In this document: positions 14,528 through 39,992 of the stretch, piece by piece
Position numbering within the stretch: the stretch's first letter is position 1
Layout of the letters: each line of letters starts with the position of its first letter
Source of the DNA: Roseateles toxinivorans
Lineage (GTDB): Bacteria; Pseudomonadota; Gammaproteobacteria; Burkholderiales; Burkholderiaceae_C
Length of the DNA stretch: 47,389 nt
Assembly (NCBI GenBank): GCA_945898095.1
Contig: CAMDHE010000019.1
Span: forward strand, 1-47,389
Direction: 5' to 3'
The notes under the pieces: generated by a model
Seen by the model: only the letters and a program-made list of their open reading frames with translations
The model's database searches: none
Told to the model about the DNA's origin: nothing
Translations under genes and position numbers: made by a program

Positions 14528-14691
14528 GGGATGCTCTGCATAACCCCTCACGGCTTGTACCAGCCCGGCCTCGGGCGGTCTGCGGCGTTGCATTTATTGC
14601 CAATAGCACGCGCTATTGGCCGCAAAATGCGCCTTGCATCCAATCCCGATCCGCGCTGCACCTACTCGCGTTGAGTTATGCAGAGCATCCC
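14528..14691. mobile_element. MITE-like element with perfect 17-base inverted ends
   Basis: The segment is bounded by gggatgctctgcataac (14528-14544) and its exact reverse complement (14675-14691). The 130 bases between contain no convincing gene but a strong hairpin: arms GCCAATAGC and GCTATTGGC around a 4-base loop at 14599-14620, extended by GCATTT and AAATGC outside. Short length, terminal inverted repeats and no transposase fit a miniature transposable element or the shell of an insertion sequence with an internal deletion. The right arm supplies the last codons and the stop of the truncated TauE/SafE remnant. No clear target duplication is seen (only AA on both sides). Confidence 0.55.
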
Positions 14692-14858
14692 AAGGTCAGT
14701 CCTGAAAGCAGCAGGATCAGAAACAGATAGCGCGTGAACTTCGCGTCCGACAGCCCTTTGTACCAGCGCGACCCCACCCATGACGCCAGCACGATGGGCG
14801 GCCCGACCAGCCAGAACAATTGCACTGAATGCGGGTTTTTCAGCGCTTCAGCCCTTGG
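14676..14858 (-). pseudogene. TauE/SafE family permease, C-terminal remnant
   Basis: Downstream of the GMC oxidoreductase stop and in the same frame, 60 codons without a start read as the end of a TauE/SafE sulfite/organosulfonate exporter: FWLVGPPIVLASWVGSRWYK, then GLSDAKFTRYLF and a last hydrophobic segment LILLLSGLTL. The stop TAA lies in the right inverted repeat of the MITE-like element. The matching N-terminal part of such a protein is at 39761-39992 on the same strand, so the two are best explained as one gene split by the block between them. The family call rests on the G-x-R-x(3)-LSD-x-x-F pattern and membrane profile, recalled rather than searched. Confidence 0.7.
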
Positions 14859-16496
14859 TCAAGACGCACCGAGTATCAGGTCCGCACCCTTCTCGCCGAT
14901 CATCAAGGACGCCGCGTGAGTGTTGGACGCACACAATGTGGGCATGACCGAGGAGTCGATGACACGTAGCGCCGTTACGCCTTGCACACGCAGAGCGGCA
15001 TCCACAACTGCCATCCGGTCTTGACCCATGCGGCAACTTCCTACCGGGTGGAACGAACTCTGGCCGGATTGCCGGATGTAGTCCAGCAACTCCATATCCG
15101 TCTTGGCATCTGCTGAGGGCCGCACCTCTCGCACTACATGCCTTGCCAGGGGCGCCTGCTCCGCCACCCGGCGCGCTAGTCGAAGAGCTTGCACCATAAC
15201 CGCGCAGTCGCCAGGGTCGCTGAGGTAGCGAGGATTGATCAGCGGGTCATCGTGTGGGTCAGCGCTGCGCACATGAACATGGCCGCGGGAGTCAGGGCGC
15301 AGTTGAAAGAAGCCTATAGAGAAGCCAGGAAACATGTCGAGCGTGCTGCCAGCTTGGGCGCCTGCAGTCATCTCGAAGCGGTCCTTGCCACTGAGGTGCC
15401 CGAGTTGGATCTTTACGCTTGGCCGAGTTCGGTCAAGTGGTGTGCATGCAAGGGCATGAATGGTAAAGGACGGTGTAGCCATCAGGCCCCGTCCGCTGGC
15501 AAGGTAGCGCAGGCCCATCCAAGCCTCGCGCCAGCGCTTGCCGACGATCTGATTCAAACTGAAGACCCCTGTGCTCTCGAAGCCCATTCGCGACTGCAGA
15601 TGATCGACCAAGTTTTCTCCCACGCCCGGAAGGTGGTGCACCACCGGGATTCCCAGTTGGCGCAGGCGATCACCATCTCCGATCCCCGAAAGCTCCAGCA
15701 ACTGGGGTGACTTGACTGGCCCACCGGCCACGATCACCTCACGCACGGCGCTGGCGCGGCGGCGCTGGCCGTTTTGCTCGTACTCGACGCCGATGGCACG
15801 TTGCCCATCGAACAGAATGCGCGTGGCCAGGGCTTCTGTGCGGATGGTCAAATTTTCCGGAAGAATGCCGCCCAGGTAGGCCGTCGCTGCATCACAGCGG
15901 CGGCCGCTTTGGGTGTTCAGTTGCAGGTACCCCACACCCTCATAACGTTGCCCGTTGTAGTCGTCGTTGGCCGAGATTCCAGCAGCAACACATGCGGCAA
16001 GGAAGGCCTCCGACAAGGGGTCGGGCGACTGCGCGAGCGAGTCGACATGCACTGGACCGTCCCGCCCGCGCAGCGCATCGGTTCCGATCGCAGTGTTTTC
16101 CAGTCGCTTGAAGTAGGGCAGCAAGTCGTCGTAACCCCAACCAGCATTGCCAAATGAGCGCCAATGGTCAAACTCGGCCGCCTCGCCGCGTACATAGATC
16201 ACACCGTTCACGCCACTGCTACCGCCCAGCATACGGCCGCGCGGCCAGTACAGTGTCTGCCCATTGAGGTACTGCTGTACCTCGGTGCGGTGCGGCCAGA
16301 CATAGCGTACGTCACCGACCAGTCGAGCGATCCCGATGGGTACCCGGACCCAGAAGTCGCGCTGACGCGCGCTGCCAGCCTCCAGCAGAAGCACGCGCCC
16401 GGCCTTCCTTTCACTTAAACGCCGCGCCAACACGCTGCCCGATGCGCCGGCGCCGATGATGATGAAGTCGTGACTCTCGTCGCGCAGCACATCCAC
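14859..16496 (-). CDS. GMC family FAD-dependent alcohol oxidoreductase (choline dehydrogenase-like), copy 1
   Basis: A 545-residue flavoprotein. The FAD motif is IIGAGASGSVLARRL near residue 13; the GMC signature 1 region contains YWPRGRMLGGSSGVNG (about 82-97), signature 2 has GPVKSPQLLELSGIG, and the C-terminal active-site histidine is in FHPVGSCRMG (about residue 483). Such enzymes oxidise primary or aromatic alcohols to aldehydes. It starts four bases after the stop of the binding-protein gene and is the last gene of the minus unit gntR - binding protein - GMC. A second GMC gene at 37114-38793 ends the catabolic part of the plus unit. Its stop is the left edge of the island. Confidence 0.93.
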   Translation of the reverse strand: MDVLRDESHDFIIIGAGASGSVLARRLSERKAGRVLLLEAGSARQRDFWVRVPIGIARLVGDVRYVWPHRTEVQQYLNGQTLYWPRGRMLGGSSGVNGVIYVRGEAAEFDHWRSFGNAGWGYDDLLPYFKRLENTAIGTDALRGRDGPVHVDSLAQSPDPLSEAFLAACVAAGISANDDYNGQRYEGVGYLQLNTQSGRRCDAATAYLGGILPENLTIRTEALATRILFDGQRAIGVEYEQNGQRRRASAVREVIVAGGPVKSPQLLELSGIGDGDRLRQLGIPVVHHLPGVGENLVDHLQSRMGFESTGVFSLNQIVGKRWREAWMGLRYLASGRGLMATPSFTIHALACTPLDRTRPSVKIQLGHLSGKDRFEMTAGAQAGSTLDMFPGFSIGFFQLRPDSRGHVHVRSADPHDDPLINPRYLSDPGDCAVMVQALRLARRVAEQAPLARHVVREVRPSADAKTDMELLDYIRQSGQSSFHPVGSCRMGQDRMAVVDAALRVQGVTALRVIDSSVMPTLCASNTHAASLMIGEKGADLILGAS

Positions 16497-16500
16497 AGCC

Positions 16501-17574
16501 TCAGTTGCAGTCAGTATCTAGATACCGGCGAATGTGGCTGGGGTCCACCGACTGGGCGATTTGTTCCTTGGTCAAGGGCTTGGTGAATGCCTTGGCTTCG
16601 TACAAAGCTTCACCAGCAACAAAGAGTTTTTCGGCCAAACCGCCGTCCTTGTTGACCAGCGACCAGGCTGACTTGGGGTCCAACTGCGACTCAATGGTGG
16701 GGATTAGCAGCGTGTCGAAGGTCTCCTTGGCCAGCGCCGGAGAAATATTGAAGGCTTCTTGCATGGTGCGAATGGCGTGCGCGGGGTCTTTGCGCCCGGC
16801 CTGCAAGGACAGCGCATGTGCCTTGACCAGTTTGCAGCCAACGCTGGGGTTGGCCTCCAGAAAGCTGGGGCGTACCGCCACCGTGGTGGCGCAGACACCG
16901 CCATTGATCTGATAGTCCTTATCCCAGGAGACGATTTTGTAGCCAGCGTCACGAAAGAGTAGGTTCCACGGGCCCCAGATGAAGGCACTGTCGATCTGGT
17001 TGCTCTTCAGCGCGGTCAGCAGCAGATTGGGTGCGAGGTTGAAGCCCTGGATGGATGCCCTGGGCACGCCTGCCGCCTTGGCAGCCAGGACCATTGAGAC
17101 CTCGGCACAGGTTGCCGTGGGTGCGCCGATATTCTTGGCCTTGGCGATGTCTCGAAAGCTGTTGATGCCCGTAGCCGGATTCACCACCAGGGCCATCTGG
17201 CTGGACGAATCCAGTGGCACCAAAATGAACTTCAGCGGGATGTCTTGGCCCAGCATGAAGAGAGTGGCCAGCCCAGTCCACGCCACGTCCAGGCTGCCGC
17301 TTTTCATGCCGGCAATCAGGGGCGCGCCACTCTGGAACATGTAGAACTTGGGCTCCAGCCCTACCTGCTCAAATAGCTTGAGTTCGCGGGCGATGTAGGC
17401 AGGCCAGTAGTTGCTGATGGGCAGGCCGATGTTGATGGGGATGAGCTTGGGCGACGTGCTCTGGGCCGCGGCCGGCGTCCCGTTGGCCAGGCCCGCGATC
17501 ATTGCTACCGCGACCAGCAACCGGCAAATGAACGCTCGTAAAAAAGGGGAAGATTGCAGCATAGTCAAGCCCAT
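16501..17574 (-). CDS. ABC transporter substrate-binding protein, NMT1/SsuA/TauA-like, copy 1
   Basis: A 357-residue periplasmic binding protein with a signal peptide (hydrophobic stretch about residues 14-34, cleavage likely after AAAQS region). The start at 17574 has GGAGA five bases upstream. Family marks are the N-terminal GLPISNYWPAYIARELKLFE and QSGAPLIAGMKSGSLDVAWT segments that line the binding cleft. Two paralogues lie at 28495-29538 and 32051-33100; this copy is the most divergent of the three (for example APTATCAEV where the others have APSGTCAQV). It is encoded opposite to the only permease gene of the island and likely feeds that transporter. Confidence 0.92.
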   Translation of the reverse strand: MGLTMLQSSPFLRAFICRLLVAVAMIAGLANGTPAAAQSTSPKLIPINIGLPISNYWPAYIARELKLFEQVGLEPKFYMFQSGAPLIAGMKSGSLDVAWTGLATLFMLGQDIPLKFILVPLDSSSQMALVVNPATGINSFRDIAKAKNIGAPTATCAEVSMVLAAKAAGVPRASIQGFNLAPNLLLTALKSNQIDSAFIWGPWNLLFRDAGYKIVSWDKDYQINGGVCATTVAVRPSFLEANPSVGCKLVKAHALSLQAGRKDPAHAIRTMQEAFNISPALAKETFDTLLIPTIESQLDPKSAWSLVNKDGGLAEKLFVAGEALYEAKAFTKPLTKEQIAQSVDPSHIRRYLDTDCN

Positions 17575-17609
17575 GATTTCTCCAGTTGTTTGCGGCCTTT
17601 GCGACCGCG

Positions 17610-18422
17610 CTAGCGTCGGGGAAAAAGATCATTCAACTCGACGCTGAGTTGATAGACGTCAGGACGCAGAAAGTGGGTGGTCATCTCCACCGGTTCACCC
17701 TGCGTGTTGCGGGAAATGCGATCCAACACCAGCAGCATCGAGCTTTGTGAAATCTCCAATGCAGCGCTGGTGGCCAGATTAGGTTGACGGCATGAAACTA
17801 GGAATTGGGCCTGTGCCAACTTCAGCCGCAGCTTCTTTTGCAGAATGTCGTAGATCGGCCGTGAATCCACATCGGCGCGGGTGATTCGGCGGCCGATATG
17901 CGGCGGTATGTGGATGCGGGTGATGGCATGGGGTACGCCGCGCGAAATGTATCTGCGCTGGTAGGTCAAAACGGGCCGTTCCCAGCTGTCCAGTTCAGGT
18001 GGGAGGTCCGGCGTTTCATTCCACTTGAACTCTGTAACTTCGACGCTGATGTCTTCGCCGATCTGGCGAAAGGTCTCCAAAAACGGGGCCATACGGTCAA
18101 TGGAATGCACGATCTTGGGCAGGTGCCGGGAGACAAAGGTGCCTTTTCCCTGCTTGCGCACCAGCACCGATTCATCGACCAGGCGTTGCATCGCCTTGCG
18201 CACTGTTGATCGGCTCACGCCATAGGCCTGCATCAGCGCTTCCTCGGTTGGAATCTGGCCACCAGGCGGTACGTTCACCACCAACTGCTGGCGCAGTCGG
18301 TCAGCGATTTGTTCGTACAGCGAATACGCGCAACCACGCTCAAGCGACTGTGCAGTAGCCGGTTGCTGGGGCGCTGCAATGGTTTCAAAAGTCGGGCGCG
18401 CTAGAGATTCAGGTTTGGGCAT
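17610..18422 (-). CDS. GntR family regulator with UTRA (HutC-type) effector domain, copy 1
   Basis: A 270-residue repressor-type regulator: winged helix at about residues 36-105 (YSLYEQIADRLRQQL, then TEEALMQAYGVSRSTVRKA) and a UTRA ligand-binding domain after residue 120. The ATG at 18422 is preferred; a GTG at 18449 would add nine residues. It is transcribed away from the permease gene, with about 100 bases between them, and so is the obvious candidate to control both divergent units. UTRA domains usually bind small metabolites related to the pathway substrate. A second GntR/UTRA gene closes the island at 38811-39650. Confidence 0.93.
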   Translation of the reverse strand: MPKPESLARPTFETIAAPQQPATAQSLERGCAYSLYEQIADRLRQQLVVNVPPGGQIPTEEALMQAYGVSRSTVRKAMQRLVDESVLVRKQGKGTFVSRHLPKIVHSIDRMAPFLETFRQIGEDISVEVTEFKWNETPDLPPELDSWERPVLTYQRRYISRGVPHAITRIHIPPHIGRRITRADVDSRPIYDILQKKLRLKLAQAQFLVSCRQPNLATSAALEISQSSMLLVLDRISRNTQGEPVEMTTHFLRPDVYQLSVELNDLFPRR

Positions 18423-18474
18423 GGATGTAAGTACCAATAGGTTGAACACGGAAATTGTTGCACCCTCAGTAAAT

Positions 18475-18490
18475 CGTATGTTAACGTATG
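18475..18490. promoter_or_regulatory. candidate regulator site: direct repeat CGTATG-TTAA-CGTATG
   Basis: In the space between the divergent gntR and permease genes, CGTATG occurs twice with a 10-base period, separated by TTAA. The spacing of one helical turn would place both copies on the same face of the DNA. It is the only conspicuous repeat in this intergenic stretch, so it is a plausible binding site for the adjacent GntR protein. GntR operators are more often inverted repeats, so this is tentative. Confidence 0.35.
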
Positions 18491-18520
18491 CGAACCTTAT
18501 AGGTCAATAAATGCCAGACA

Positions 18521-20687: not shown

Positions 20688-20693
20688 CTATTC

Positions 20694-21479: not shown

Positions 21480-21994
21480 GCAGCTCCAACAATGACATCG
21501 GCTTTGCCGAAGTTGACGAGATCCTACGCATCATTGACCAGTTTCCTGCCGCCGAAATCGTCTATGAACGCGGCGACCTGAAGTTGCATGTTCGCCGCAC
21601 CGGGTCAGTGGCCCCTGGGCATACTGGACCGCTGCTGGTCGCTGCGACGGAGACCCAGTCTGCGGTAGTTGCCACTGCGGCAAGCGCACCGGTTGGGCTC
21701 GAGGCAGTCACGATTGCGCCCGTGGTGCAGAGCGATCGCTCTGGTCAACTTGCCGTTGAGTCCCCCATGATTGGTGTTTTTTACGCCGCCCCAGCGCCGG
21801 GTGCCGAACCCTTCGTCAGCGTCGGACAGTTAATTGCCCGCGGCGACGATCTATGCATCATCGAAGTCATGAAGGTCATGAACACGATGACGTCTCCCTG
21901 GTCCGGTACGGTGATGGCGGTCTGCGCAGCTAACGCCTCGTTGGTCGAACGCGGTCAGCCCTTGATGTGGATACAACCGACAGGGGATGCATGA
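21476..21994 (+). CDS. biotin carboxyl carrier protein, AccB-like
   Basis: A 172-residue carrier with an N-terminal part like AccB (about residues 10-42), an Ala/Pro/Val-rich linker and a C-terminal biotinyl domain starting near SPMIGVFYAAPAPGAEPFV. The biotin-attachment lysine is Lys 133 in EVMKVMN. Most carriers have (A/S)MK(M/L) here, so Val on both sides of MK is unusual. The ATG overlaps the SDR stop (ATGA). It would be charged with CO2 by the biotin carboxylase at 23558-24907 and serve the HMGL-type carboxyltransferase at 24904-26397. Confidence 0.9.
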   Translation: MSSSNNDIGFAEVDEILRIIDQFPAAEIVYERGDLKLHVRRTGSVAPGHTGPLLVAATETQSAVVATAASAPVGLEAVTIAPVVQSDRSGQLAVESPMIGVFYAAPAPGAEPFVSVGQLIARGDDLCIIEVMKVMNTMTSPWSGTVMAVCAANASLVERGQPLMWIQPTGDA

Positions 21995-23148
21995 TGAACG
22001 CAACATCCACTCCATGTGCGGCTATTGTCGGCGTTGCCGAGTCAGACCTCGGCATAGTGACGGGCAAGACGGCATGTGATTTGGCGGTGCAAGCCTCTCT
22101 GCGTGCATTGGACGATGCCGGGCTGTCGCTGTCTGACGTCGATGGCCTGTTCACTGCCAACCTGTCGCGCTTTTCCGTCACATTGCTGGCCGAGCATCTG
22201 GCCATCCAACCTGCCGTGCTGGACTGCACCATGACCGGCGGTTCTTCCTTCGAGATGCATGTTGGCCACGCTGTGTCGGCCATCCGTGCCGGCTTGTGTG
22301 AGGTGGCTTTGATCGCCTACGGAAGCGTGCAGCGCTCGCGCAAGATGCGGAACATGCAGGGTTTCAGCGAAAGCGGCACTTCTGCGGCGCAGTATGAAAA
22401 CTGTTATGCGCCGCTCTTCCCGCTGTCGTTCTACGCCATGGTGGCGCAGCGTTACATGCATGAAACCGGCGCCACATCTCAGGACCTGGCTCAGGTGGCG
22501 GTAGCGGCTCGGCAGTGGGCGGCATTGAATCCGAAGGCGTTCAAGCGCGACCCACTTAGCATCGCCGACGTATTGGCCTCACCGCTGGTGAGTTCGCCGC
22601 TGCGCGGATTGGACTGCTGTCTCATCACCGACGGCGGTGGCGCTGTGGTCGTGACCTCACTCTCGCGGGCGCGTGACATGCGCTGCAAGCCGGTGCTGGT
22701 GCTCGGTCACGGCGAGGCAACCACCCACGATGCGATGTCGCAAGCGCCAAACCTACGCCACCACGGTTCGGCCGACTCCTCGCGCCGCGCCTACAAGATG
22801 GCGGGGGTGGTGCCAGCAGACATCGATGTTGTGCAACTCTACGATGCCTTCACCATCAACGTTTTGGTGGGATTGGAAAACCTGGGTTTCTGCGAATTCG
22901 GCGCTGCCCGGGATTTCATCGCCGGAGGCCGCATCGCCCCTGGCGGGGATTTTCCGCTAAATACGCAAGGCGGCGGTTTGTCCTATTGCCATCCCGGCAT
23001 GTTTGGAGTCTTCCTCTTGATCGAGGCGGTGCGTCAATTGCGTGGCGAATGCGGACCGCGCCAAGTGGCAGACGCGAAGCTTGCGCTCTGCCACGGCACA
23101 GGCGGAATCTTCAGCTCGCATTCAACCGTCATTCTCGGAGTGCAGTGA
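21991..23148 (+). CDS. thiolase-like protein (SCP-x/lipid-transfer type)
   Basis: A 385-residue thiolase-fold protein of the non-canonical SCP-x/Ltp group. Where true thiolases have the nucleophilic cysteine, this sequence has MTGGSSFEMH (about 81-90) with no cysteine; the C-terminal LCHGTGGIFSSHS (His 368) and YCHPG region (near 330) are kept. The gene is followed at once by a DUF35 gene, the arrangement of the steroid side-chain aldolases such as Ltp2 with ChsH2. A retro-aldol or related C-C cleavage of a CoA ester is therefore more likely than classical thiolysis. The start is the ATG at 21991, overlapping the carrier stop and preceded by AGGGG. Confidence 0.88.
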   Translation: MMNATSTPCAAIVGVAESDLGIVTGKTACDLAVQASLRALDDAGLSLSDVDGLFTANLSRFSVTLLAEHLAIQPAVLDCTMTGGSSFEMHVGHAVSAIRAGLCEVALIAYGSVQRSRKMRNMQGFSESGTSAAQYENCYAPLFPLSFYAMVAQRYMHETGATSQDLAQVAVAARQWAALNPKAFKRDPLSIADVLASPLVSSPLRGLDCCLITDGGGAVVVTSLSRARDMRCKPVLVLGHGEATTHDAMSQAPNLRHHGSADSSRRAYKMAGVVPADIDVVQLYDAFTINVLVGLENLGFCEFGAARDFIAGGRIAPGGDFPLNTQGGGLSYCHPGMFGVFLLIEAVRQLRGECGPRQVADAKLALCHGTGGIFSSHSTVILGVQ

Positions 23149-23555
23149 TGACAGCACCACGCCCCCTGCCCGAAATCGATGCCGAGGCCGCGCCATTCTG
23201 GGCTGGTTCAGCAGGCCACCAGTTGCTGGTGCAATTCTGTAACGCCTGCGGCAACCATCAACATTACGCGCGGCCGTTCTGCACAAGCTGTCGCGGTCGC
23301 GACTTGAAGATGGTGCCCAGCTGCGGCACCGGCGTCCTGCACTCCTTCACTGTTGTACACCGTGGCCCTTTCGACGATCTCCCCACGCCCTATATCGTGG
23401 CGCTGGTCAAACTCGACGAAGGGCCTACGCTGCTGAGCCATTTGGTTGAGTGCGATCCAGCATTGGCGCGGTGTGACATGCCGGTGCAGGTGGCCTTTGA
23501 GCCGCTGCGTGACGGTATCGTGCTGCCGGTCTTTAGGCCGCGCCTGCAAGGCTGA
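23148..23555 (+). CDS. DUF35 protein: zinc ribbon plus OB fold
   Basis: A 135-residue partner of the thiolase-like protein. The N-terminal rubredoxin-like zinc ribbon has CNAC and CTSC pairs (about residues 28-47), followed by an OB-fold domain that in characterised cases helps bind the acyl-CoA. It overlaps the thiolase-like stop by one base (TGATG), so the two are made together. In steroid degradation the equivalent subunit is required for aldolase activity. The gene ends two bases before the biotin carboxylase start. Confidence 0.9.
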   Translation: MTAPRPLPEIDAEAAPFWAGSAGHQLLVQFCNACGNHQHYARPFCTSCRGRDLKMVPSCGTGVLHSFTVVHRGPFDDLPTPYIVALVKLDEGPTLLSHLVECDPALARCDMPVQVAFEPLRDGIVLPVFRPRLQG

Positions 23556-23557
23556 GC

Positions 23558-24907
23558 ATGAAGCGCGTATTGGTCGCTAACCGAGGCGAGATCGCTCTGC
23601 GCATAGTTCGCGCCTGTGCTGAGCAGGGCTTGGAAACGGTCGCTGTCTATTCCGATCCCGACCGCGATCTGCGTGGCGTGCAATGTGCCACAGCGGCCCT
23701 TCGACTAGGGCCGGCACCCGCCCGTCATAGCTACCTCAACAGCGACTTGTTGATCGCCGCAGCGCGGGCAACCGGTTGTGATGCCGTACATCCGGGTTAC
23801 GGCTTCCTCTCCGAGGACGCCTCGTTCGCGCAAGCCTGTCTCGATGCCGACCTGACTTTCATCGGCCCGCCACCAGCCGTGATTCGACAGATGGGCGACA
23901 AGATCGCCGCCAAGCACCTGGTCGAGTCCTTGGGTATTCCGCTCGTGCCCGGCGGGACCATTGCTGAAGATGCCAAGCTTGCCGAATTCGCTGCCACGCT
24001 GCCATACCCTGTCTTGCTGAAGGCCGCAGCCGGTGGTGGTGGTCGCGGAATGCGGGTAGTGCTGACGAAGGATGAATTCATCCCTTCACTGATCGCCGCC
24101 CGCCACGAGGCGCGTGAAGCTTTTGGTGACGCGACCGTGTACTGGGAATGCTATGTGCGCAACGCGAGGCATATCGAGGTACAGGTTCTGAGCGACGGAC
24201 ACGGCCATCACGTGCATCTGGGTGAGCGTGATTGCAGTCTGCAGCGCCGGCACCAGAAATTGCTCGAAGAGAGCCCTAGCCCCCTACTCACCGCCGCCAA
24301 ACGTGCCGACCTGTGCGAGGCGGCCCTGCGGATCGTACGCAGGCTCGACTACCGTAGCGCCGGCACGATCGAGTTCTTGTTCGATGTCGACCGGGGTAGT
24401 TTTCATTTTATCGAGATGAACACGCGTATCCAGGTCGAGCACCCAGTTACCGAGATGGTGACTGGCGTGGACCTGGTGCGTGAACAGTTGCGTATCGCTG
24501 CGGGATGGAGCATCGACCTGGATCAGATGCAGCGCTTGCCATCGGGCCATGCCATAGAGTGCCGTATCAATGCCGAGGACCCGGCTCGCGATTTTGCACC
24601 CTGTCCGGGCAAGATTACACGCCTGGTGCTGCCCGGCGGGCCAGGTGTGAGGGTCGACACTCACTGCGAGGCAGGCACCGTGGTGTCGCCTTACTACGAC
24701 TCGATGATCGCCAAACTCATTGTCTGGGACCTGGACCGTAAATCAGCCTGCCGTCGCATGGTGCGCGCGCTGCAGGAACTGGTGGTCGAGGGCGTCACCA
24801 CAACGACGGCTTTTCACCTCGAAGTCCTGCAAACCCCAGACTTCGTGAATTCAACTTACAACACGCGCTGGATCGGCGAGCGAGCAAGCCGGGAGAGGTC
24901 CTTATGA
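23558..24907 (+). CDS. biotin carboxylase (AccC-like)
   Basis: A 449-residue ATP-grasp enzyme that carboxylates carrier-bound biotin with bicarbonate and ATP. It has the N-terminal KRVLVANRGEIALRIVRAC, the glycine-rich ATP loop AAAGGGGRGMRVV, the HLGERDCSLQRRHQK stretch and NTRIQVEHPVTE with the catalytic Glu and Arg. Length is that of AccC. It sits between the DUF35 gene and the carboxyltransferase, whose start overlaps its stop. With the separate carrier and carboxyltransferase it forms a three-polypeptide carboxylase distinct from the one at 42104-46892. Confidence 0.95.
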   Translation: MKRVLVANRGEIALRIVRACAEQGLETVAVYSDPDRDLRGVQCATAALRLGPAPARHSYLNSDLLIAAARATGCDAVHPGYGFLSEDASFAQACLDADLTFIGPPPAVIRQMGDKIAAKHLVESLGIPLVPGGTIAEDAKLAEFAATLPYPVLLKAAAGGGGRGMRVVLTKDEFIPSLIAARHEAREAFGDATVYWECYVRNARHIEVQVLSDGHGHHVHLGERDCSLQRRHQKLLEESPSPLLTAAKRADLCEAALRIVRRLDYRSAGTIEFLFDVDRGSFHFIEMNTRIQVEHPVTEMVTGVDLVREQLRIAAGWSIDLDQMQRLPSGHAIECRINAEDPARDFAPCPGKITRLVLPGGPGVRVDTHCEAGTVVSPYYDSMIAKLIVWDLDRKSACRRMVRALQELVVEGVTTTTAFHLEVLQTPDFVNSTYNTRWIGERASRERSL

Positions 24908-26397
24908 AACCACTTGAGATCATGGACATCACGGTGCGCGATGCGCAGCAATGCCTTTGGGCGACGCGTATGACCACCGAGGAAATGCTGCCGATTGCTC
25001 GGACGATGGACGAGGCCGGCTTCCACATCATCGACCTGACTGGCGGCGCAGCCATCGACGCGAGCATGATGTTCCTGGGCGAGGATCCATTCGAGCGCAT
25101 TCGTCAGATGGCACGCCTCATCACAAAAACACCTTTGAATTTCAACACCCGCGGGCAGAGCATCTTTCGGTGGATGCAGTACGCCGACGACGTAGCTGAG
25201 TTCACACTCGAGTTACTGCGTCGTAATGGCATCCGCTCGATCATGGTGTTTGACGCGCTCAACGACTTTCGCAACGCACGCGCCACCATGCGCTGCGCCA
25301 AGGCCCTGGATCTCTACATCATCGGGGCCGTCACTTACACCATCAGCCCAGTACATACCGACGAACATTTCGTCACCAAGGCACGCGACCTGGTGTCCAT
25401 GGGCGCCAACGCTATCGAGTTGAAAGACCCTAGCGGCCTTCTCACGCCAGAACGGGTGCGCGAACTGATTCCCAAACTGCGCGCCGCAGTTGGCACGACC
25501 CAACTGCAGTTGCACTCGCATTGCACTTTTGGTCACGGCCTTGACACCTACCGCGCGGCCATTGAACTCGGCGAGCAGGGCGTGGACCTTTGTCATGCCG
25601 CGAGCAAGGCATTGGCCTACGGATATTCGCTGCCGCCGCACGACTTCGTCATTGATGAAGCGGCTCGGGTTGGCCGCAGTTGTCGAGTCGACCGTGCGGC
25701 AATCGCGCAGATCGAGCATTACTTCAATCTCGTCACCCGGCGCGGTGGCCGCCAGGTTGGCCGCATGCCGCCGCTGCAGTCGGTCGAAGTCGACCACCAG
25801 GTACCCGGCGGCATGATGAGCAACCTAGAGCGCCAGCTACAGGATCAGGGGCAGGGTCATCGACTGCCTGAGGTGTTGGAAGAAGTGGGCCGCGTGCGCC
25901 GCGATTTAGGCTGGCCGATCGTCGTCAGTCCGATGGCGCAATACCTGGGCGCACAGGCAGTATTGAACGTGCTCACAGGCAAACGCTACCAGATCGTGCC
26001 GCAGGAGATCAAACAGTACGTGCTCGGCTATTACGGCGAGGTCGCCGGCCCGATCGACCCTGCGGCGCGTGAAGCCATCGCAGGCGACGAGCAAGGAATT
26101 AACGTTCCGCCCGGCGAATTGATCCAGCCAATGATGGCCAATTACCGTCAGCAGTTCGGCTCCTGCGGTTCCGACGAGGAACTGGCCATGCGCATCTTCT
26201 ATTCCGAACGCACAGTCGAAGAAAACCGCAAAGCGCGCCTGCTCGTGAAGCCTGGCGCACTGGCCACCGATGCCGGTAGCTTCTTGGCAAGGGCCATGCT
26301 GTCCGATCCGACACTGGAACTTTGCGAGGTACGGCGCAAGAGCTTTCACTTCGTGATGAACCGCACCCCCCCGACTGCCACGGCAGCGCAACCCTGA
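24904..26397 (+). CDS. HMGL-type carboxyltransferase (PycB/OadA-like), variant active site
   Basis: A 497-residue relative of pyruvate carboxylase subunit B, oxaloacetate decarboxylase alpha and transcarboxylase 5S. Conserved are D8-x3-R12-D13-A-x-Q at the start of the TIM barrel, Lys 174 in ELKDPSGLL (the lysine carbamylated in the family), the metal ligands His 204 and His 206 (HSHC), and HQVPGGMMSNL (298-308) opening the C-terminal domain. The segment that holds the catalytic threonine in relatives (MTYGHP or GMTSQP) reads LAYGYSLPP here, so Thr appears to be Ala 238; the residue after the second metal His is Cys, not Asp. There is no fused biotin domain. The acceptor is probably not pyruvate. 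GGGAGAGG precedes the start. Confidence 0.88.
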   Translation: MKPLEIMDITVRDAQQCLWATRMTTEEMLPIARTMDEAGFHIIDLTGGAAIDASMMFLGEDPFERIRQMARLITKTPLNFNTRGQSIFRWMQYADDVAEFTLELLRRNGIRSIMVFDALNDFRNARATMRCAKALDLYIIGAVTYTISPVHTDEHFVTKARDLVSMGANAIELKDPSGLLTPERVRELIPKLRAAVGTTQLQLHSHCTFGHGLDTYRAAIELGEQGVDLCHAASKALAYGYSLPPHDFVIDEAARVGRSCRVDRAAIAQIEHYFNLVTRRGGRQVGRMPPLQSVEVDHQVPGGMMSNLERQLQDQGQGHRLPEVLEEVGRVRRDLGWPIVVSPMAQYLGAQAVLNVLTGKRYQIVPQEIKQYVLGYYGEVAGPIDPAAREAIAGDEQGINVPPGELIQPMMANYRQQFGSCGSDEELAMRIFYSERTVEENRKARLLVKPGALATDAGSFLARAMLSDPTLELCEVRRKSFHFVMNRTPPTATAAQP

Positions 26398-26410
26398 ACC
26401 GGAGCACATC

Positions 26411-26725
26411 ATGGTGCGCATCGAGATCATTCTTTTTCGCAATCACATGACACTGGAAGAACAGCAACGCTGGTGGACAGAAGACCATGCACCAATCGCG
26501 CGCCGAATGCCGGGCCTGCGTGGCTACTTCATCAATATGGCAGGTCGTGGCGAGGGCGCTGAAGAGCCGGAGATCTGTGGAACCGACACGCTCAGCTTTG
26601 ACAGCTGGGAAGCTGCCATGGCGGCATATGAATCGCCTGAGTGGAAGGCCGCACGCGCTCACACGCAAGCCTCCGGGGCCAAAGCCCTTCGCACCTGGGT
26701 GCGCGAGCAGATCACCGTCATCTAA
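26411..26725 (+). CDS. EthD-like dimeric alpha/beta-barrel protein
   Basis: A 104-residue protein with a ferredoxin-like fold pattern: MVRIEIILFRNHMTLEEQQR, then WWTEDHAPIARRMPGLRGYF, a central acidic loop and FDSWEAAMAAYESPEWKAA. The TEDHAPIARRMPG stretch matches the EthD family, whose members include small isomerases and accessory proteins of monooxygenase pathways. A GGAG ribosome site precedes the ATG. It may isomerise or protect an intermediate made by the carboxylase or AcnX enzyme on either side; the sequence does not reveal which. Confidence 0.82.
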   Translation: MVRIEIILFRNHMTLEEQQRWWTEDHAPIARRMPGLRGYFINMAGRGEGAEEPEICGTDTLSFDSWEAAMAAYESPEWKAARAHTQASGAKALRTWVREQITVI

Positions 26726-26740
26726 GGCAGGAGCAGAAAC

Positions 26741-31997: not shown

Positions 31998-32050
31998 GCG
32001 CTGGACCCCATGCCGTGGCAACCGCCTTGGCCAACTCCCAGGAGATCAAG

Positions 32051-33100: not shown

Positions 33101-33264
33101 ACGTGCCGACACTAGCCCTTCGAGACCTAGGTCATGCGCCTGCGCTGCGCTTTAGTCCCTGGATGCGGCTCATGAGCGTCACGCTTGCCACCCTTCCGGG
33201 GTTGCTGCCCTGCATCGTCCTGACGTCACCCAAAAGCTGGCGGGTTCGCGGGCAGAGCGACTGA
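33097..33264 (+). CDS. hypothetical 55-residue protein, possibly a decayed remnant
   Basis: A short frame coupled by an ATGA overlap to the binding-protein stop and ending four bases before the aldehyde dehydrogenase start. It contains one hydrophobic stretch (MSVTLATLPGLLPCIVLTS, about residues 26-44). I recognise no family. It could be a small membrane peptide or the N-terminal remains of a second permease gene that once followed the binding protein, as ABC operons usually have a permease here. The coding evidence is only position and coupling. Confidence 0.35.
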   Translation: MNVPTLALRDLGHAPALRFSPWMRLMSVTLATLPGLLPCIVLTSPKSWRVRGQSD

Positions 33265-33268
33265 GGCC

Positions 33269-34717
33269 ATGGCAATCGATTATCCGCAGGACCTGGGCTT
33301 GTACATCGACGGGGCGTGGCACCGCGGTGGCGGTCGAGCCTTGCGTCCGGTGTTCGACCCCAGCAGTGGCGAGACCGTAGGTCAGCTGCCCCTGGCGAAT
33401 TCGACTGATCTTGACGCCGCTCTGTCTGCGGCCGAGCAAGCTGCACCGGCATGGCGTCGCCAAACGGCATGGCAACGCGCAGCCATACTCAAGCAAGCGG
33501 CACGTATCGTGGCGCAGCGCAAGTCGGCGCTGGCCGCGGTGCTGACCACTGACAACGGCAAACCACTGGCCGACGCCTTGGCCGAAATCGACCGCGTTGT
33601 CGAGACACTGGAATGGTGCGGCGAAGAAGCCACGCGACTGGACGGTCGCATGCTGCCGCCGCGAAGCCCCGGACTTTTACAGGCCACGGTGAAAGACCCG
33701 ATCGGACCGGTGGCGGCTTTCGCGCCCTGGAATTTCCCTGCCGTGCTCTGTATGCGCAAAGTGGCTCCGGCATTGGCAGCAGGTTGCACGGTGATCGTGA
33801 AGCCCGCCGAGGAAACACCGGCGGTATGCGTTGCGCTGGTGCAGGCGCTGGTGGATGCAGGTGTACCCGCCGGTGTTTTGAACCTGGTCTTCGGTGAGCC
33901 GAGTGAGGTATCCCAGCACCTCATTGCTTCGCCCATCATCCGCAAGTTGTCTTTCACAGGCTCAGTTCCCGTGGGTCGACTGCTCTACGAACAGGCTGCG
34001 CGTGGATTGAAAGCAGTGACGATGGAACTCGGTGGCCACTCGCCGGTGCTGGTGTTCGACGATGTCGACGTCAACAAGGTAGCCGCTGCGTGCGCTGCCT
34101 TCAAGTACCGTAACGCCGGCCAAGTCTGTCTATCGCCCAATCGCTTCTTCGTGCATGAAAGCGTGTACCGGGACTTCGTCGCGGCTTTTGTCGCCGCCGC
34201 GCGTGCCCTGCGTATTGGTCCAGGCACCGAAGCCGGTGTGCAAATGGGCCCGCTCAATAACCCGCGCCGGCTCGCTGCGGCCGAACGCTTTGTCGCTGAT
34301 GCGAGCGATAGCGGCGCGCGCATCGAACTCGGCGGCCATCGCATCGGATCACGCGGCTGGTTCTTCCAGCCCACGGTGTTGACCGGCTTGGACCCGACTG
34401 CGGCGCTGATGCATGAAGAGCCTTTCTGCCCGGTAGCGCCCATCGTTGCCTTCGCAACGCTCGATGAGGCCGTCGCGCGGGCCAACGGCGTGGCATTTGG
34501 CTTGGCCGCTTATGCCTTCACCCGTAGTAGTGCCCGTGCAGCCGAGCTCAGCGAACGATTGGCAGCGGGTTGGATAGGCATCAACAGCTTTACGCCAGCG
34601 CTGGCCGATGCCGCTCTGGGTGGCATGAAAGACAGCGGAGTCGGCTACGAAGGTGGCCGCGAAGGGCTGGAGGCGTACTTGCAGACACGATTCATTAGCC
34701 ACGACCGCCTCTTTTGA
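33269..34717 (+). CDS. NAD(P)-dependent aldehyde dehydrogenase (GabD-like)
   Basis: A 482-residue ALDH superfamily enzyme oxidising an aldehyde to a carboxylic acid. Catalytic Cys 287 in NAGQVCLSP, general base Glu 253 in MELGGHSP, oxyanion Asn 155 in PWNFP and coenzyme-binding Lys 178 in VKPAEETP are all present. The closest recalled family is succinate-semialdehyde dehydrogenase. GAGG precedes the ATG. In the island it would act after the two GMC alcohol oxidases and supply an acid for the CoA-transferase. Confidence 0.95.
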   Translation: MAIDYPQDLGLYIDGAWHRGGGRALRPVFDPSSGETVGQLPLANSTDLDAALSAAEQAAPAWRRQTAWQRAAILKQAARIVAQRKSALAAVLTTDNGKPLADALAEIDRVVETLEWCGEEATRLDGRMLPPRSPGLLQATVKDPIGPVAAFAPWNFPAVLCMRKVAPALAAGCTVIVKPAEETPAVCVALVQALVDAGVPAGVLNLVFGEPSEVSQHLIASPIIRKLSFTGSVPVGRLLYEQAARGLKAVTMELGGHSPVLVFDDVDVNKVAAACAAFKYRNAGQVCLSPNRFFVHESVYRDFVAAFVAAARALRIGPGTEAGVQMGPLNNPRRLAAAERFVADASDSGARIELGGHRIGSRGWFFQPTVLTGLDPTAALMHEEPFCPVAPIVAFATLDEAVARANGVAFGLAAYAFTRSSARAAELSERLAAGWIGINSFTPALADAALGGMKDSGVGYEGGREGLEAYLQTRFISHDRLF

Positions 34718-34733
34718 AAACCGGGGAATTCTG

Positions 34734-36134
34734 ATGAATCCAAATTCCAACCCGCCAACCCGCCGCATTCACATGCGTTATGGGGGTTACCACAAGCGCC
34801 TTGAGCCGGCGTATGACGCCGAGTTGACTGGGACCGATCCGGATACGCCCATGGGCGAATTGATGCGCCGCTTCTGGCAACCTGTGTGTTTGTCTGAACA
34901 ACTCGGGCAACTACCGCTAGCAATCCGGATCCTGGGCGAAGACCTGGTTGCCTTTCGTGACCACAGTGGCCGGGTGGGCGTGCTCGAGCGGCATTGCAGC
35001 CACCGCGGCACATCACTCGAATTCGGCATCATTACTGCGCAGGGTATCCGATGCTGTTACCACGGCTGGCACTACGCAGTGGATGGCACCCTTCTGGAAA
35101 CACCATGTGAACCGGCGGAGAGTCGGCTTAAAGACAGCATCTGCCAGGGTGCCTACCCGGCTTTGGAGCGCGACGGGCTGGTCTTCGCCTACATGGGACC
35201 ACCGCAGGCTTTGCCACCATTCCCGGAGTGGGACTCCCTGCGTTTGCCGGTTGGTAACAGATTGGTACCGTTCTCCAACGTTTACCCTTGCAACTGGTTA
35301 CAGGTGTTCGAGAACATCATGGACCACATGCATACGGCGGTGCTTCACAACCACATGACGGTGAGCGATGTGGATGTCCAGACCTCGGCTGGCGTCTCAC
35401 TGGAGGGCTTCGGCGACATGCCAGTGATGCACTGGGAGCCAACCCGGGACGGTGCGGGTTGCTGTTTCGTGGCTGGCCGTCGCCTACCCGGGGGCAAGAT
35501 CTGGGTGCGGATCACCGAAATGGCCTTTCCCAATTTTTTGCAGATCGGCTCGTTGGTGCCATCTGCCGCACGCGAACGTCACTCCTGCGTCGCACTGACC
35601 CGCTGGCATGTGCCGGTCGACGACACCCACATGATCATCTTTGGCTGGCGCCATTTCAACGCGGTCATTGATCCCGATCAGGCCGGCTCGCCCGAAGATT
35701 GTGGCGTGGACAAAATCGACTTCCTGGTGGGCCAGACCGGCAACCGCAGCTATGAGGAGGGCCAGCGTGCACCAGGTGACTGGGAGGCCTTGGGCAGCCA
35801 ACGGCCGATTGCCATCCACGCGCTGGAAAACCCGGGCCGTTCCGATATTGGTGTCTACCTGTGTCGCAAGCTCTTGCGCGAACAGGTGCGCGCACTGCAG
35901 CCCGTGCTGCCCGATTCCCCGGTTACCCAAGGGCCGAAGGATTCCCTGCCAATGTATTCGCAGGATTCGATTCTGAACTTGCCCCAGCGTGAGGGTGAGG
36001 ATGACAGACTGCTGGTCATGAACACCGGCACACAGGTGCTGGCCATCATGAGAGAAGCTGACTTGCTGCCCTCAGAGAAGCGCGATGAGCATGTACGTCG
36101 CCGGCTCGATCAACTGGACGGCGGCGCACGCTGA
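34734..36134 (+). CDS. Rieske non-heme iron oxygenase, alpha subunit (phthalate/phenoxybenzoate dioxygenase-like)
   Basis: A 466-residue oxygenase. The Rieske [2Fe-2S] ligands are Cys 88, His 90, Cys 107 and His 110 (CSH ... CCYHGW). The mononuclear iron motif is N194-x2-D197-x2-H200-x4-H205. The single-component alpha type with a downstream VanB-like reductase places it with phthalate 4,5-dioxygenase, phenoxybenzoate dioxygenase and O-demethylases of the vanillate demethylase kind; hydroxylation or ether/N-demethylation of a ring compound is likely. GGGGAA lies 8-10 bases before the ATG at 34734; the longer frame lies in the ALDH gene. Confidence 0.94.
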   Translation: MNPNSNPPTRRIHMRYGGYHKRLEPAYDAELTGTDPDTPMGELMRRFWQPVCLSEQLGQLPLAIRILGEDLVAFRDHSGRVGVLERHCSHRGTSLEFGIITAQGIRCCYHGWHYAVDGTLLETPCEPAESRLKDSICQGAYPALERDGLVFAYMGPPQALPPFPEWDSLRLPVGNRLVPFSNVYPCNWLQVFENIMDHMHTAVLHNHMTVSDVDVQTSAGVSLEGFGDMPVMHWEPTRDGAGCCFVAGRRLPGGKIWVRITEMAFPNFLQIGSLVPSAARERHSCVALTRWHVPVDDTHMIIFGWRHFNAVIDPDQAGSPEDCGVDKIDFLVGQTGNRSYEEGQRAPGDWEALGSQRPIAIHALENPGRSDIGVYLCRKLLREQVRALQPVLPDSPVTQGPKDSLPMYSQDSILNLPQREGEDDRLLVMNTGTQVLAIMREADLLPSEKRDEHVRRRLDQLDGGAR

Positions 36135-36141
36135 GCAAGGC

Positions 36142-37086
36142 ATGCAATTATTGGTGCGCTCGATCACCCAGGAAGCGCTTGGCATCCGAACCTTCGAGTT
36201 GGTTCATCCTCATCGCAATGCGCTACCGGCCTTTGAAGCTGGCGCACATGTCGATGTCCAGGTGCCTGGCGGACCGGTAAGGCAATATTCGCTGTGCAAT
36301 GCTCCGGCCGAGCGTTATCGCTACCTGATTGCCGTACTGCGCGTGGACCGCGGCCGCGGCGGCTCGACGGGCATGCACCAACATGTCGATGTGGGCGACC
36401 TGCTGGAGGTGTCGGCGCCGCGCAATCAGTTCGAGTTGGCCGGAGTGGCTCAGCGCCACCTGCTCATTGCCGGCGGCATCGGCGTGACGCCTTTGCTGGC
36501 GATGGTCGAGGCACTCTCCGCGCGCCAGGCCGATTTCCGACTGGTCTATTGCACCCGCTCCATCGACCACACGGCTTTCACGGATCGACTCGAAGAGCAC
36601 CTGCGTGCTGGTCGAGTCAGCTTGCACCATGACGACGGTGACCCCACACGTGCGCTTGACCTGCTTGCCCTGCTGGCCCGCCAGGAAGACGGCACGCACC
36701 TCTACTGCTGCGGCCCTGCAGGCTTGATGCAGGCGGTCAAGAATGCCACAGCCCATTGGGCGGTCGGCAGCGTGCATTTCGAGTACTTCGCACCGTCCTC
36801 AGCATCAACAGCACCCGCTGATGGCGACGGTTTCGAGGTTCGTTTAGCGCGTTCGGGTGGCAGTTACCACGTGCCACCGGGTCGCTCGATCATCGATGTG
36901 CTGCGCGCCAACGGTGTTGCTTGCGAGACCTCTTGCGAGGCGGGCGTCTGTGGCACTTGCCGTACGCCCTACCTAGAGGGAACACCGTTGCACCAGGACT
37001 TTGTTCTCACTTCGCAGGAACAGACCAAGTTCGTTCTCATATGCTGCGCTCGCTCCAGTTCAGCTGTCCTCGTCCTAGACCGCTGA
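36142..37086 (+). CDS. Rieske oxygenase reductase (VanB / phthalate dioxygenase reductase type)
   Basis: A 314-residue reductase with three domains in order: flavin-binding barrel with RQYSLCN (47-53), NAD-binding fold with IAGGIGVTPLLAM (109-121) and CCGPAGLM (189-196), and a C-terminal plant-type ferredoxin with Cys 265, 270, 273 and 301 or 302 (CEAGVCGTC). This order is that of phthalate dioxygenase reductase and VanB. It passes electrons from NADH to the oxygenase just upstream. The ATG at 36142 (8 bases after the oxygenase stop) gives the usual family length; an earlier frame at 36085 overlaps the oxygenase. Confidence 0.95.
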   Translation: MQLLVRSITQEALGIRTFELVHPHRNALPAFEAGAHVDVQVPGGPVRQYSLCNAPAERYRYLIAVLRVDRGRGGSTGMHQHVDVGDLLEVSAPRNQFELAGVAQRHLLIAGGIGVTPLLAMVEALSARQADFRLVYCTRSIDHTAFTDRLEEHLRAGRVSLHHDDGDPTRALDLLALLARQEDGTHLYCCGPAGLMQAVKNATAHWAVGSVHFEYFAPSSASTAPADGDGFEVRLARSGGSYHVPPGRSIIDVLRANGVACETSCEAGVCGTCRTPYLEGTPLHQDFVLTSQEQTKFVLICCARSSSAVLVLDR

Positions 37087-37113
37087 GCGGCCAAATTTTT
37101 TGGAAATCAGACC

Positions 37114-38793
37114 ATGAGTGAACTCGCCACGTACGACTTTGTCATCGTTGGCGCCGGCTCAGCCGGTTGCGTACTGGCCGACAGGCTCAGTGCCGATGGC
37201 CGCCACCGCGTGCTTCTGTTGGAGGCCGGTCCACCAGATCGGAACCCATGGATCCACGTGCCGATCGGCTATGGCAAGACGATGGTCAACAAAACGGTGA
37301 ACTGGCAGTTCATGACCGAGCCCGAACCCGAGTTGCACCAGCGCAAACTGTACTGGCCGCGCGGCCGCACGTTGGGCGGCTCCAGTTCGATCAACGGGCT
37401 GGTCTATATCCGCGGTCAGGCGCAGGACTACGACGCTTGGGCTGCTGCCGGAAATGCGGGTTGGGCCTGGAAAGACGTCCTGCCCTACTTCATCCGGTCG
37501 GAATCGAATGCGCGTGGCGCCAACCCCTGGCATGGCGACAGCGGCCCATTGCATGTGTCGGACATCGGCGTGAAACATCCGTTGGTTGAAGCCTTCATCC
37601 ACTCGGCTCAGGAACTCGGCATTCCACCCAACGACGATTTCAATGGTGCCTCGCAGGAGGGCGCTGGCTATTATCAACTCACCACCCACAGGGGCCTGCG
37701 CGCTTCCACAGCCCGAACCTACCTGAAACGCGCTCGCAGCCGGCCCAACCTCACCGTCATCACCAATGCACATGCCACGCGCGTACTTTTCGAGGGCACT
37801 CTGGCAGTTGGCATTGTCTACCACCATGACAACCAGGAGGTTCAGGTGCGCTCCCGCCGCGAGGTACTGCTGTGCGCAGGTGCGGTCCAGTCCCCCCAAC
37901 TGCTCCAGTTGTCAGGAGTCGGTCCGCCGGAATTGCTGCGCCAGTATGGGCTGCCCGTGCGAGTGGACAGCCCGGGCGTCGGCGAAAATCTGCAAGACCA
38001 CCTCCAGGTGCGACTGATCTACAAATGCAGCCAGCCTGTAACCACCAATGATGACTTACGAACGGTATGGGGCCGCATGCGCATCGGACTGCAATGGCTA
38101 TTGCAACGGCGCGGGCCGCTGGCAATCGGTATCCAGCTTGGTGGTCTGTTTGCAAAGGCCTCGCCACAGTCGACTACGCCCGATGTGCAGTTCCACTTCG
38201 GCACCATCAGCGCCGACGTTGTCGCCGGAAAGCCGCACGATTTCTCGGGCTTCACGCTGTCGATGTGCCAGTTGAGGCCCACCAGTCGCGGTAGCGTTCA
38301 GATCCAGTCTGCGGATGCCCGGCAGGCACCGGCAATCCGGGCCAATTACATGACGACTTCGCACGACCAAGCCTTGATGGTGGCGGGTACACAGTTAGCG
38401 CGGCGTTTGATGACCAGCAAGGCGATGTCGCCCATGATCGTGGAGGAATACAGGCCAGGCCCTGCAATGGCCACTGAGGCCGATATGCTGGACTTCGTAC
38501 GCCGCGAGGGCGTGACCATCTTTCACCCGGTGGGAACCTGCAGCATGGATCCGGGGCCCATGGGCGTCGTGGACGAGAGGCTTCGTGTGTACGGAACCGC
38601 TGGACTGCGCGTTGTGGACGCCTCCATCATGCCGCTGCTGATCTCAGGCAATACCAATGCGACTTCGATCATGATCGGCGAAAAGGCGGCGGAGATGATT
38701 CTCGCCGACCTGACACAAGGGGCCCCGGTCCAAGCTCAGCGCCTTGCCACGGTTGCCAAGCCGGTTGTTGTTGGAGTGCCGGCAGCGGCCTGA
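37114..38793 (+). CDS. GMC family FAD-dependent alcohol oxidoreductase, copy 2
   Basis: A 559-residue flavoprotein of the choline dehydrogenase / aromatic alcohol oxidase family. FAD motif FVIVGAGSAGCVLADRL (9-25), signature 1 around YWPRGRTLGGSSSINGLVYI (about 79-98), signature 2 GAVQSPQLLQLSGVG and active-site histidine in IFHPVGTC (about 471). It is similar along its length to copy 1 at 14859-16496 but clearly diverged, so it probably has its own alcohol substrate. It follows the Rieske reductase by 27 bases; oxidation of a hydroxymethyl group formed by the oxygenase is a reasonable guess. Confidence 0.94.
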   Translation: MSELATYDFVIVGAGSAGCVLADRLSADGRHRVLLLEAGPPDRNPWIHVPIGYGKTMVNKTVNWQFMTEPEPELHQRKLYWPRGRTLGGSSSINGLVYIRGQAQDYDAWAAAGNAGWAWKDVLPYFIRSESNARGANPWHGDSGPLHVSDIGVKHPLVEAFIHSAQELGIPPNDDFNGASQEGAGYYQLTTHRGLRASTARTYLKRARSRPNLTVITNAHATRVLFEGTLAVGIVYHHDNQEVQVRSRREVLLCAGAVQSPQLLQLSGVGPPELLRQYGLPVRVDSPGVGENLQDHLQVRLIYKCSQPVTTNDDLRTVWGRMRIGLQWLLQRRGPLAIGIQLGGLFAKASPQSTTPDVQFHFGTISADVVAGKPHDFSGFTLSMCQLRPTSRGSVQIQSADARQAPAIRANYMTTSHDQALMVAGTQLARRLMTSKAMSPMIVEEYRPGPAMATEADMLDFVRREGVTIFHPVGTCSMDPGPMGVVDERLRVYGTAGLRVVDASIMPLLISGNTNATSIMIGEKAAEMILADLTQGAPVQAQRLATVAKPVVVGVPAAA

Positions 38794-38810
38794 CTCGCTG
38801 CAAGCGCCAC

Positions 38811-39650
38811 ATGCATAATGTTCTGATGTCGCGAAAATTGATTGCCTTTGAGGCTTCTGCAGTCACACCTTGCCCCATCAGCGGCCCGGCTCTGGCCCAT
38901 ACTGTGCAGCGCTACCGGCCCAAAGGGTTGGGGATTGCTAAATACGAACAACTCGGCCAAGCCTTGCTCGGTGCCATAGAGGATCAGGTTTGGCGACTGG
39001 GCGACAAACTGCCCACCGAATCCGCCCTGGCCTCCGCTACGCCCTATAGCCTAGGTACCGTGCAGAATGCTTATCGATCACTGGTGGAACGTGGTGTGGT
39101 GGTGCGCATCCAGGGATGCGGTACCTTCGTCGCTGAAAGACGCCACAGCATGGACGCGCCGTGGCATTGCCGTTTCCTTAACGACCTGGGCGACAGCTTC
39201 CTGCCGGTTTACACCCATGTGCTCTCGCGCGAACTCACCCATGCAACAGGGCCATGGACCAAATTTCTAGGCCAGTCGGCCGACGGCATCGTGCGCATAG
39301 ATCGCTGTTTGACCATCAACGACGAGTTCGACGTCTACAGCAAGTTCTTCGTCCGTGCTGATCGCTTCGGCACATTGCTGGATCGTCCGGCACGCGAACT
39401 TGAAGGCATCAATTTCAAGCTGCTACTCAGCCGTGAGTTCGGCACGCCCGTTTCACGACTAAGCCAGACTCTCGCCGTGTCCAAGCCGCCGCCAATTGTG
39501 CGCGAGGCCTTGCAACTCAAGGCATCGGCCAGCGTCACAGTACTGGACGCATCGGCCTCGACAAACACAGCAACTCCGGTCTACTTCCAGTCCCTCTACA
39601 TCCCGCCAAACCGTCGCCAGCTCAGTCTTGACGACATGACTCGGTGCTGA
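38811..39650 (+). CDS. GntR family regulator with UTRA-type C-terminal domain, copy 2
   Basis: A 279-residue regulator (274 if the ATG at 38826 is used; neither has a clear ribosome site). The N-terminal winged helix covers about residues 42-108 (KYEQLGQALLGAIEDQVWRL, LPTESALASATPYSLGTVQN), with an atypical recognition helix SLGTVQNAYRSLVERG. The rest fits a UTRA-like effector domain. It is the last gene of the island, 17 bases after GMC copy 2, and together with the first GntR gene frames the plus unit. It may control the inner promoter at 29598-29640. Confidence 0.88.
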   Translation: MHNVLMSRKLIAFEASAVTPCPISGPALAHTVQRYRPKGLGIAKYEQLGQALLGAIEDQVWRLGDKLPTESALASATPYSLGTVQNAYRSLVERGVVVRIQGCGTFVAERRHSMDAPWHCRFLNDLGDSFLPVYTHVLSRELTHATGPWTKFLGQSADGIVRIDRCLTINDEFDVYSKFFVRADRFGTLLDRPARELEGINFKLLLSREFGTPVSRLSQTLAVSKPPPIVREALQLKASASVTVLDASASTNTATPVYFQSLYIPPNRRQLSLDDMTRC

Positions 39651-39760
39651 CCGAGGATCACTGCCGCCCGCATTTTCATCAGCTTGCAAGGGCCCATGTG
39701 TAAAAAGCAGCCTTGCCTGTGGCTTACATACTCTTGTCGGGGCGCTTGAACTGCCCGCTC

Positions 39761-39992
39761 CAAAAGGGCCGGCGCGTGCTGCGCGGATGTCCTTGCGCAC
39801 ACTGCTGATGGAGATCATCTGCCCAAGCAAGGAACCGAAGATCACCGTGGGCACCACCAACTGCGGCTCGATGGTCCAGGCCCAGATGGAGGTGGCGATC
39901 AGGCCGAAGGCAAACCCCGAGATGCCCTGGATGAAACCGGCCACCAGAGCTCCGCCAACGATCTGTACGGCCACCGATGTCTCGATGTTCAT
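39761..39992 (-). pseudogene. TauE/SafE family permease, N-terminal remnant
   Basis: From an ATG at 39992 the minus strand reads about 77 residues of a TauE/SafE exporter N-terminus: the first membrane segment with GGALVAGFIQGISGFAFGL, then IEPQLVVPTVIFGSLLGQMI and SSVRKDIRAARAGPF. After that the frame continues open but loses all resemblance and runs antisense into the GntR gene. The expected C-terminal part is found at 14676-14858. It is divergent from the GntR/FCD gene at 40109, a common arrangement for an exporter and its regulator. The right edge of the island is therefore near 39761, give or take some tens of bases. Confidence 0.75.

Follow-up and report, generated by a model that had tools for sequence, protein, structure and literature searches.

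Foreign DNA can enter a chromosome at the cost of recipient sequence. In the process termed homology-facilitated illegitimate recombination (HFIR), insertion of foreign DNA is coupled to a deletion in the recipient without mobile-element machinery; reported insertions and deletions average ~1 kb, one end showing homology and the other usually 3 to 10 bp of microhomology (PMC3240628). The event described here resembles HFIR in coupling an insertion (24,923 bp) with a deletion (344 bp) in the absence of mobile-element machinery, and differs from it in scale, with 24.9 kb gained for 344 bp lost, and in the homology anchor, which was not found. The event lies in a 47,389-bp stretch of DNA from an uncultured Roseateles toxinivorans (the window), which is the whole of contig C19 in a 4.7-Mb, 209-contig draft genome (G000). 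There, a TauE/SafE permease gene is split by a catabolic block. Among the literature matches listed, we found nothing relevant to an island disrupting a TauE/SafE gene.

Events of this kind are familiar, and this case is unusually well resolved. The entry of a 25-kb catabolic block into a chromosome, with no recognisable mobile element, can be read to the base, and for this block the unfilled site, the two junctions and the sequence that was lost are all known. The value of the case lies in this resolution and in a discordance between block and flanks, and the coordinates can be used to follow the spread of the block between related species in environmental reads.

A permease gene split by a catabolic block

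Two separated pieces of a TauE/SafE permease are read on the minus strand of the window. The N-terminal remnant (39762-39992) comprises codons 1 to 77 and matches positions 2-73 of the PF01925 profile with 33.3 bits, against a cut-off of 32.6. The C-terminal remnant of the same permease (14691-14838) runs from codon 193 and matches positions 193-236 with 21.7 bits (E = 1.8e-4), which on its own is below the cut-off of 32.6. Both pieces are contained, in order and at ~95% DNA identity, in a single intact gene of another genome of the genus, G016, so that the resemblance is not due to chance, an explanation that we dropped. This gene (L073 7618-8388) encodes a 256-residue TauE/SafE permease that scores 105.2 bits against PF01925.

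We searched 17 other same-genus genomes for both flanks of the block, all genomes involved being drafts. Both flanks are present at 93-97% identity in two of the 17, G013, where the site is filled, and G016, where it is empty. A single G016 contig is collinear with window positions 47389-39755, 14837-14690, 14529-9091, and 9064-1, at 95-97% identity. On the right, the intact permease gene adjoins the genes for a GntR/FCD regulator and a CoA-transferase of family III (CaiB-like; window 40070-42107, plus strand), and on the left it adjoins a pentapeptide-repeat protein gene (13660-14358, minus strand). The inserted block itself, a catabolic module of 24,923 bp (14839-39761), is absent from G016, in which its left half has only 8 short matches (63-381 bp, 66-78%) and its right half only 18 (62-443 bp, 64-86%). 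The original prediction, that one TauE/SafE gene was cut open by a block of ~24.9 kb with both fragments keeping the strand and order of that gene, is confirmed: the refutation test, run on the block-free G016, finds an intact TauE/SafE gene that joins the pentapeptide side to the GntR/FCD-CaiB side, and both fragments match it.

More widely, a homologue of the intact permease (E <= 1e-40) is encoded in 76 of 399 genomes of the family, the genome of the window counted. The nearest of these, in G399 from another genus, has a permease with 71% identity that lies beside FCD (69%) and CaiB (86%) homologues. These neighbours were not seen at the other 29 of 30 permease loci checked, each with ~1.5 kb of flank.

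Comparison with G016 shows both junctions and the loss. At the right junction, the window tracks the G016 gene to GGCCCTTTT (39762) and then departs from it for 24,923 bp; at the left junction, the G016 gene is resumed at AACCCGC (14838). Because GGCCC-TTTT is present on both sides, the placement of the junctions is uncertain by a few bases. Lost relative to G016 are 344 bp (L073 7850-8193), or codons 78-192 (~115 codons), plus or minus a few bases, in agreement with the 110-120 middle residues predicted to be missing. The C-terminal remnant, which had been placed at 14858-14676, is real, but similarity begins at 14838, 20 bp from the predicted start, and is interrupted at 14690; the 20 bases at 14839-14858 are a spacer past the stop codon of a GMC oxidoreductase gene and are not permease. 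The stop codon thought to end this piece proved to be foreign to the gene, as 14676-14690 and the stop belong to a MITE, and the true end lies at 14477. Beyond the MITE, the last 15 permease codons and the stop, together with the duplicated target, occupy 14477-14528 on the minus strand, as seen by comparison with G016. With codons 78-192 gone and a MITE in the C terminus, the window permease is a pseudogene and not full-length, and its fragments are best annotated as one pseudogene.

A MITE in the C-terminal remnant

The element that interrupts the C-terminal remnant (14529-14690) is 162 bp long, has inverted ends, and is bordered by a 4-bp target duplication, CAAG. It is classed as a MITE in being short, with inverted ends, a target duplication, and many copies, and it is like other MITEs with 4-bp target duplications in these respects (162-164 bp, inverted ends, many copies). 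It may be IS5-like. Copies occur in at least 40 places in G000 at 92-100% identity (40 scored of 149 candidates), and 4-bp duplications are found at 8 of 11 distinct copies in the fetched loci, one of the remaining three being truncated where its contig stops. With respect to the block, the MITE is located outside the left junction. It is absent from this site in G016, where the target stands uninterrupted, and present at the same site in G013. Nothing relevant to a comparable MITE was found among the literature matches listed. We also note that the MITE is in many places of G000, G013, and G016 and that relatives with 74-86% identity are found in other members of the genus.

Age of the break

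Codon differences between the remnants and the intact G016 gene bear on when the permease was broken. In G000, the N-terminal remnant has 5 synonymous and 1 non-synonymous differences in 77 codons and the C-terminal remnant 6 and 0 in the 46 codons compared, giving 11 and 1 in 123 codons; the tail beyond the MITE adds 2 and 1 in 16 codons, for 13 synonymous and 2 non-synonymous differences over all remnants. Neutral change would be expected to give a non-synonymous fraction of 0.68-0.74. Under neutrality, 1 or fewer non-synonymous differences in 12 has a probability of 4e-6 to 3e-5, and 2 or fewer in 15, with the tail included, 2e-6 to 2e-5. So few non-synonymous changes imply that the permease was under selection for most of the divergence and was broken late in the G000 lineage. 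Judged from these counts, the break in the lineage of the window would be recent.

The remnants of G013 present a different picture. Its N-terminal remnant is decayed, with 5 synonymous and 8 non-synonymous differences, including one stop, in 61 codons, while its C-terminal remnant has 4 synonymous and 0 non-synonymous differences in 46 codons. One shared history does not explain both the decayed N-terminal and the undecayed C-terminal remnant. The sequence equivalent to window 39947-39992, 46 bp that include the permease start, is missing from G013, where the ends of the deletion overlap by 7 bp (L074 at ~7660 and G013:C103 at ~21659).

Block and flanks differ in kinship

G013 has the same two junctions and the same MITE as the window. 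Its flanks are closer to those of the empty G016, at 98.8% identity over 3,103 bp on the left and 97.8% over 4,590 bp on the right, than to those of G000, at 96.6% over a 4,490-bp left contig (GMC edge included) and 96.0% on the right. The block interior (18282-39761), in contrast, is 99.6% identical between G013 and G000, with 87 mismatches in 21,480 bp. At the right end, near-identity extends from 18282 to 39800 on G013:C103, and the N-terminal remnant then has 14 mismatches in 185 bp, the first at 39801, which places the change in identity no more than 40 bp from the right junction. At the left end, the 306 bp at 14466-14771, including the MITE, are all identical, followed by 59 mismatches in 1,145 bp (14772-15916); the GMC left edge accounts for 54 mismatches in 1,058 bp. 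Window positions 15917-18281 were not found in G013, whose contigs stop at 15916 and resume at 18282. The codon counts follow the same division: 69 of 6,398 codons differ in 17 interior genes, as against 50 of 352 in the GMC part, 44 of 424 in CaiB, and 23 of 233 in the pentapeptide gene.

As judged from these identities, the discordance suggests either exchange between lineages or chimerism in metagenome assembly. The mosaic of identities between G000 and G013 fixed no direction of transfer. That the near-identical interior is a chimera of metagenome assembly, with no exchange between lineages and with the split real in both genomes, is a possibility of some weight, though we favor it less than exchange: G013 is apparently a bin from a metagenome (L094), its contigs break at 15916 and 18282 around a stretch that it lacks, and the change in identity lies in the 40 bp beside the right junction. 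However, the decayed N-terminal remnant of G013 and its own right flank share a contig with the near-identical interior, and this remnant could decay only if the gene of G013 was also broken.

If exchange between lineages did take place, the permease halves might have served as recombination arms, with a block that lacks mobility genes passed between related species by homologous exchange at the remnants and the broken gene acting as its address. This reading fits the discordant kinship of block and flanks, the point at which the near-identity of the interior ends, no more than 40 bp from the right junction, and the remnants of the window, functional until recently; we offer it as speculation and regard it as doubtful.

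Entry of the block

The explanation that we prefer, and consider probable as a whole, is that the block replaced the middle of an intact permease gene by end joining with deletion, in a recent break, and that exchange followed later. The starting point would be an intact chromosomal TauE/SafE gene, divergent from the GntR/FCD-CaiB operon, whose middle 344 bp the 24.9-kb catabolic block would then have replaced. Joining would have been by illegitimate end joining and not by an integrase or transposon, with the recipient DNA lost in the same event as integration, and block sequence may later have been exchanged by homologous recombination between related species. Counting against this explanation, just two of the 17 other same-genus genomes have these flanks, one of them empty and one filled.

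The joining mechanism is reached by exclusion, as we found neither an anchor of homology nor a donor molecule or intermediate. We detected no tRNA gene in the window, no integrase, transposase, or other mobility domain in the 23 block open reading frames (ORFs) scanned (a set that does not include every small ORF), and, between the two 100-bp edge windows, no word of at least 7 bp in common in either orientation, whereas random pairs of sequences mostly share 6 to 7 bp. An integrase-type genomic island or ICE was rejected for want of a tRNA gene, an edge repeat of at least 7 bp, or an integrase in the scanned ORFs, and a composite transposon for want of a transposase domain in those ORFs and of paired repeats at the edges. 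With integrase, transposase, tRNA gene, and edge repeat all not found, illegitimate recombination with deletion is the likeliest route. At the right junction, the GGCCC-TTTT common to both sides is only suggestive as microhomology. The original prediction that the insertion caused the deletion stands as far as 24,923 bp in and 344 bp out are concerned; that both arose in a single event is, with no intermediate found, only inferred.

We think it unlikely that the block was carried in by an integrative or transposable element and that a later deletion removed the ends of this element and the permease middle. Later loss of the element ends would leave the same junctions, the 344 bp of lost recipient DNA would be accounted for, and the MITEs attest to active transposition in this genus; yet no mobility gene is found among the scanned block ORFs, the edges share no repeat of 7 bp or more, and G013 has the same clean junctions. 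A lack of relation between the two permease pieces, or a misassembled window, as the modest profile scores of the pieces (33.3 and 21.7 bits) and the origin of the window in a 209-contig draft might suggest, is scarcely credible and, short of an error common to both assemblies, already refuted by the match of both pieces to one G016 gene at ~95% DNA identity and by the recurrence of both junctions in the separate assembly of G013.

Content and relatives of the block

Entry of the block by replacement of the permease middle would have brought in a module for transport, regulation, and catabolism. The ORFs match NMT1-type binding proteins, an ABC permease and ATPase, and GntR/UTRA regulators, and, among enzymes, GMC oxidoreductases, a CoA-transferase, an SDR, a thiolase, a biotin carboxylase, an OadA-like carboxyltransferase, aconitase X (AcnX), a sulfatase, an aldehyde dehydrogenase, and a Rieske oxygenase and reductase; interspersed with these are genes for a ChsH2-like OB-fold protein and for proteins with a biotin-carrier or an EthD domain. 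A GMC oxidoreductase gene (14859-16496, minus strand) forms the left edge, its 14859-15916 part being 94.9% identical in G013. The last gene at the right edge is that of a GntR/UTRA regulator (GntR2; 38811-39650, plus strand).

Within 21480-27997, the biotin carrier, biotin carboxylase, and OadA-like carboxyltransferase genes adjoin those for the thiolase with its ChsH2-like partner, the EthD protein, and aconitase X, a gene order that G280 largely preserves and the Rhizobiales record L163 preserves in part. Genes for an aldehyde dehydrogenase, the Rieske oxygenase, the reductase, and a GMC protein stand in a row at 33269-38793. At 56% identity, the Rieske protein resembles a plasmid protein of Methylibium petroleiphilum PM1 that adjoins a VanB-type reductase and is presumably MdpJ, the tert-butyl alcohol oxygenase, a likeness hinting that the module may act in branched-alcohol breakdown. 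The nearest solved structures to the Rieske protein are of phthalate-dioxygenase-type proteins.

A module in G280:C75 (apparently JANXXS010000246.1; L153, L212, and L216) is collinear with the block from the binding protein beside GntR1 to GntR2. Most genes share 68-89% protein identity, with the biotin carrier (49%), the ChsH2-like OB-fold protein (54%), and the reductase (60%) less alike, and, unlike in the block, two further GMC genes lie past GntR2. The permease remnant had no match in the G280:C75 stretches examined. A scan of named genomes for AcnX gave 86 loci that encode a relative, of which 80 were kept. Three of these, L094 (apparently G013 itself), L153, and L163, have most of the module or a large part of it; alongside AcnX, none of the other 77 has more than two further block genes at 45% identity or above. 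A plasmid home for the block was considered and dropped, as none of the AcnX, Rieske, and OadA matches among the collected plasmids reached 60% identity. A known RNA element was dropped as well (0 Rfam matches at gathering scores).

An intergenic strip (39651-39761) separates GntR2 from the right junction. We note that 39675-39777 resembles intergenic stretches at G016:C248:3275-3377 (78%) and G000:C163:4562-4658 (77%), and that such a stretch elsewhere in the genus lies between an ABC permease gene and a VOC-like gene, as labeled by eye.
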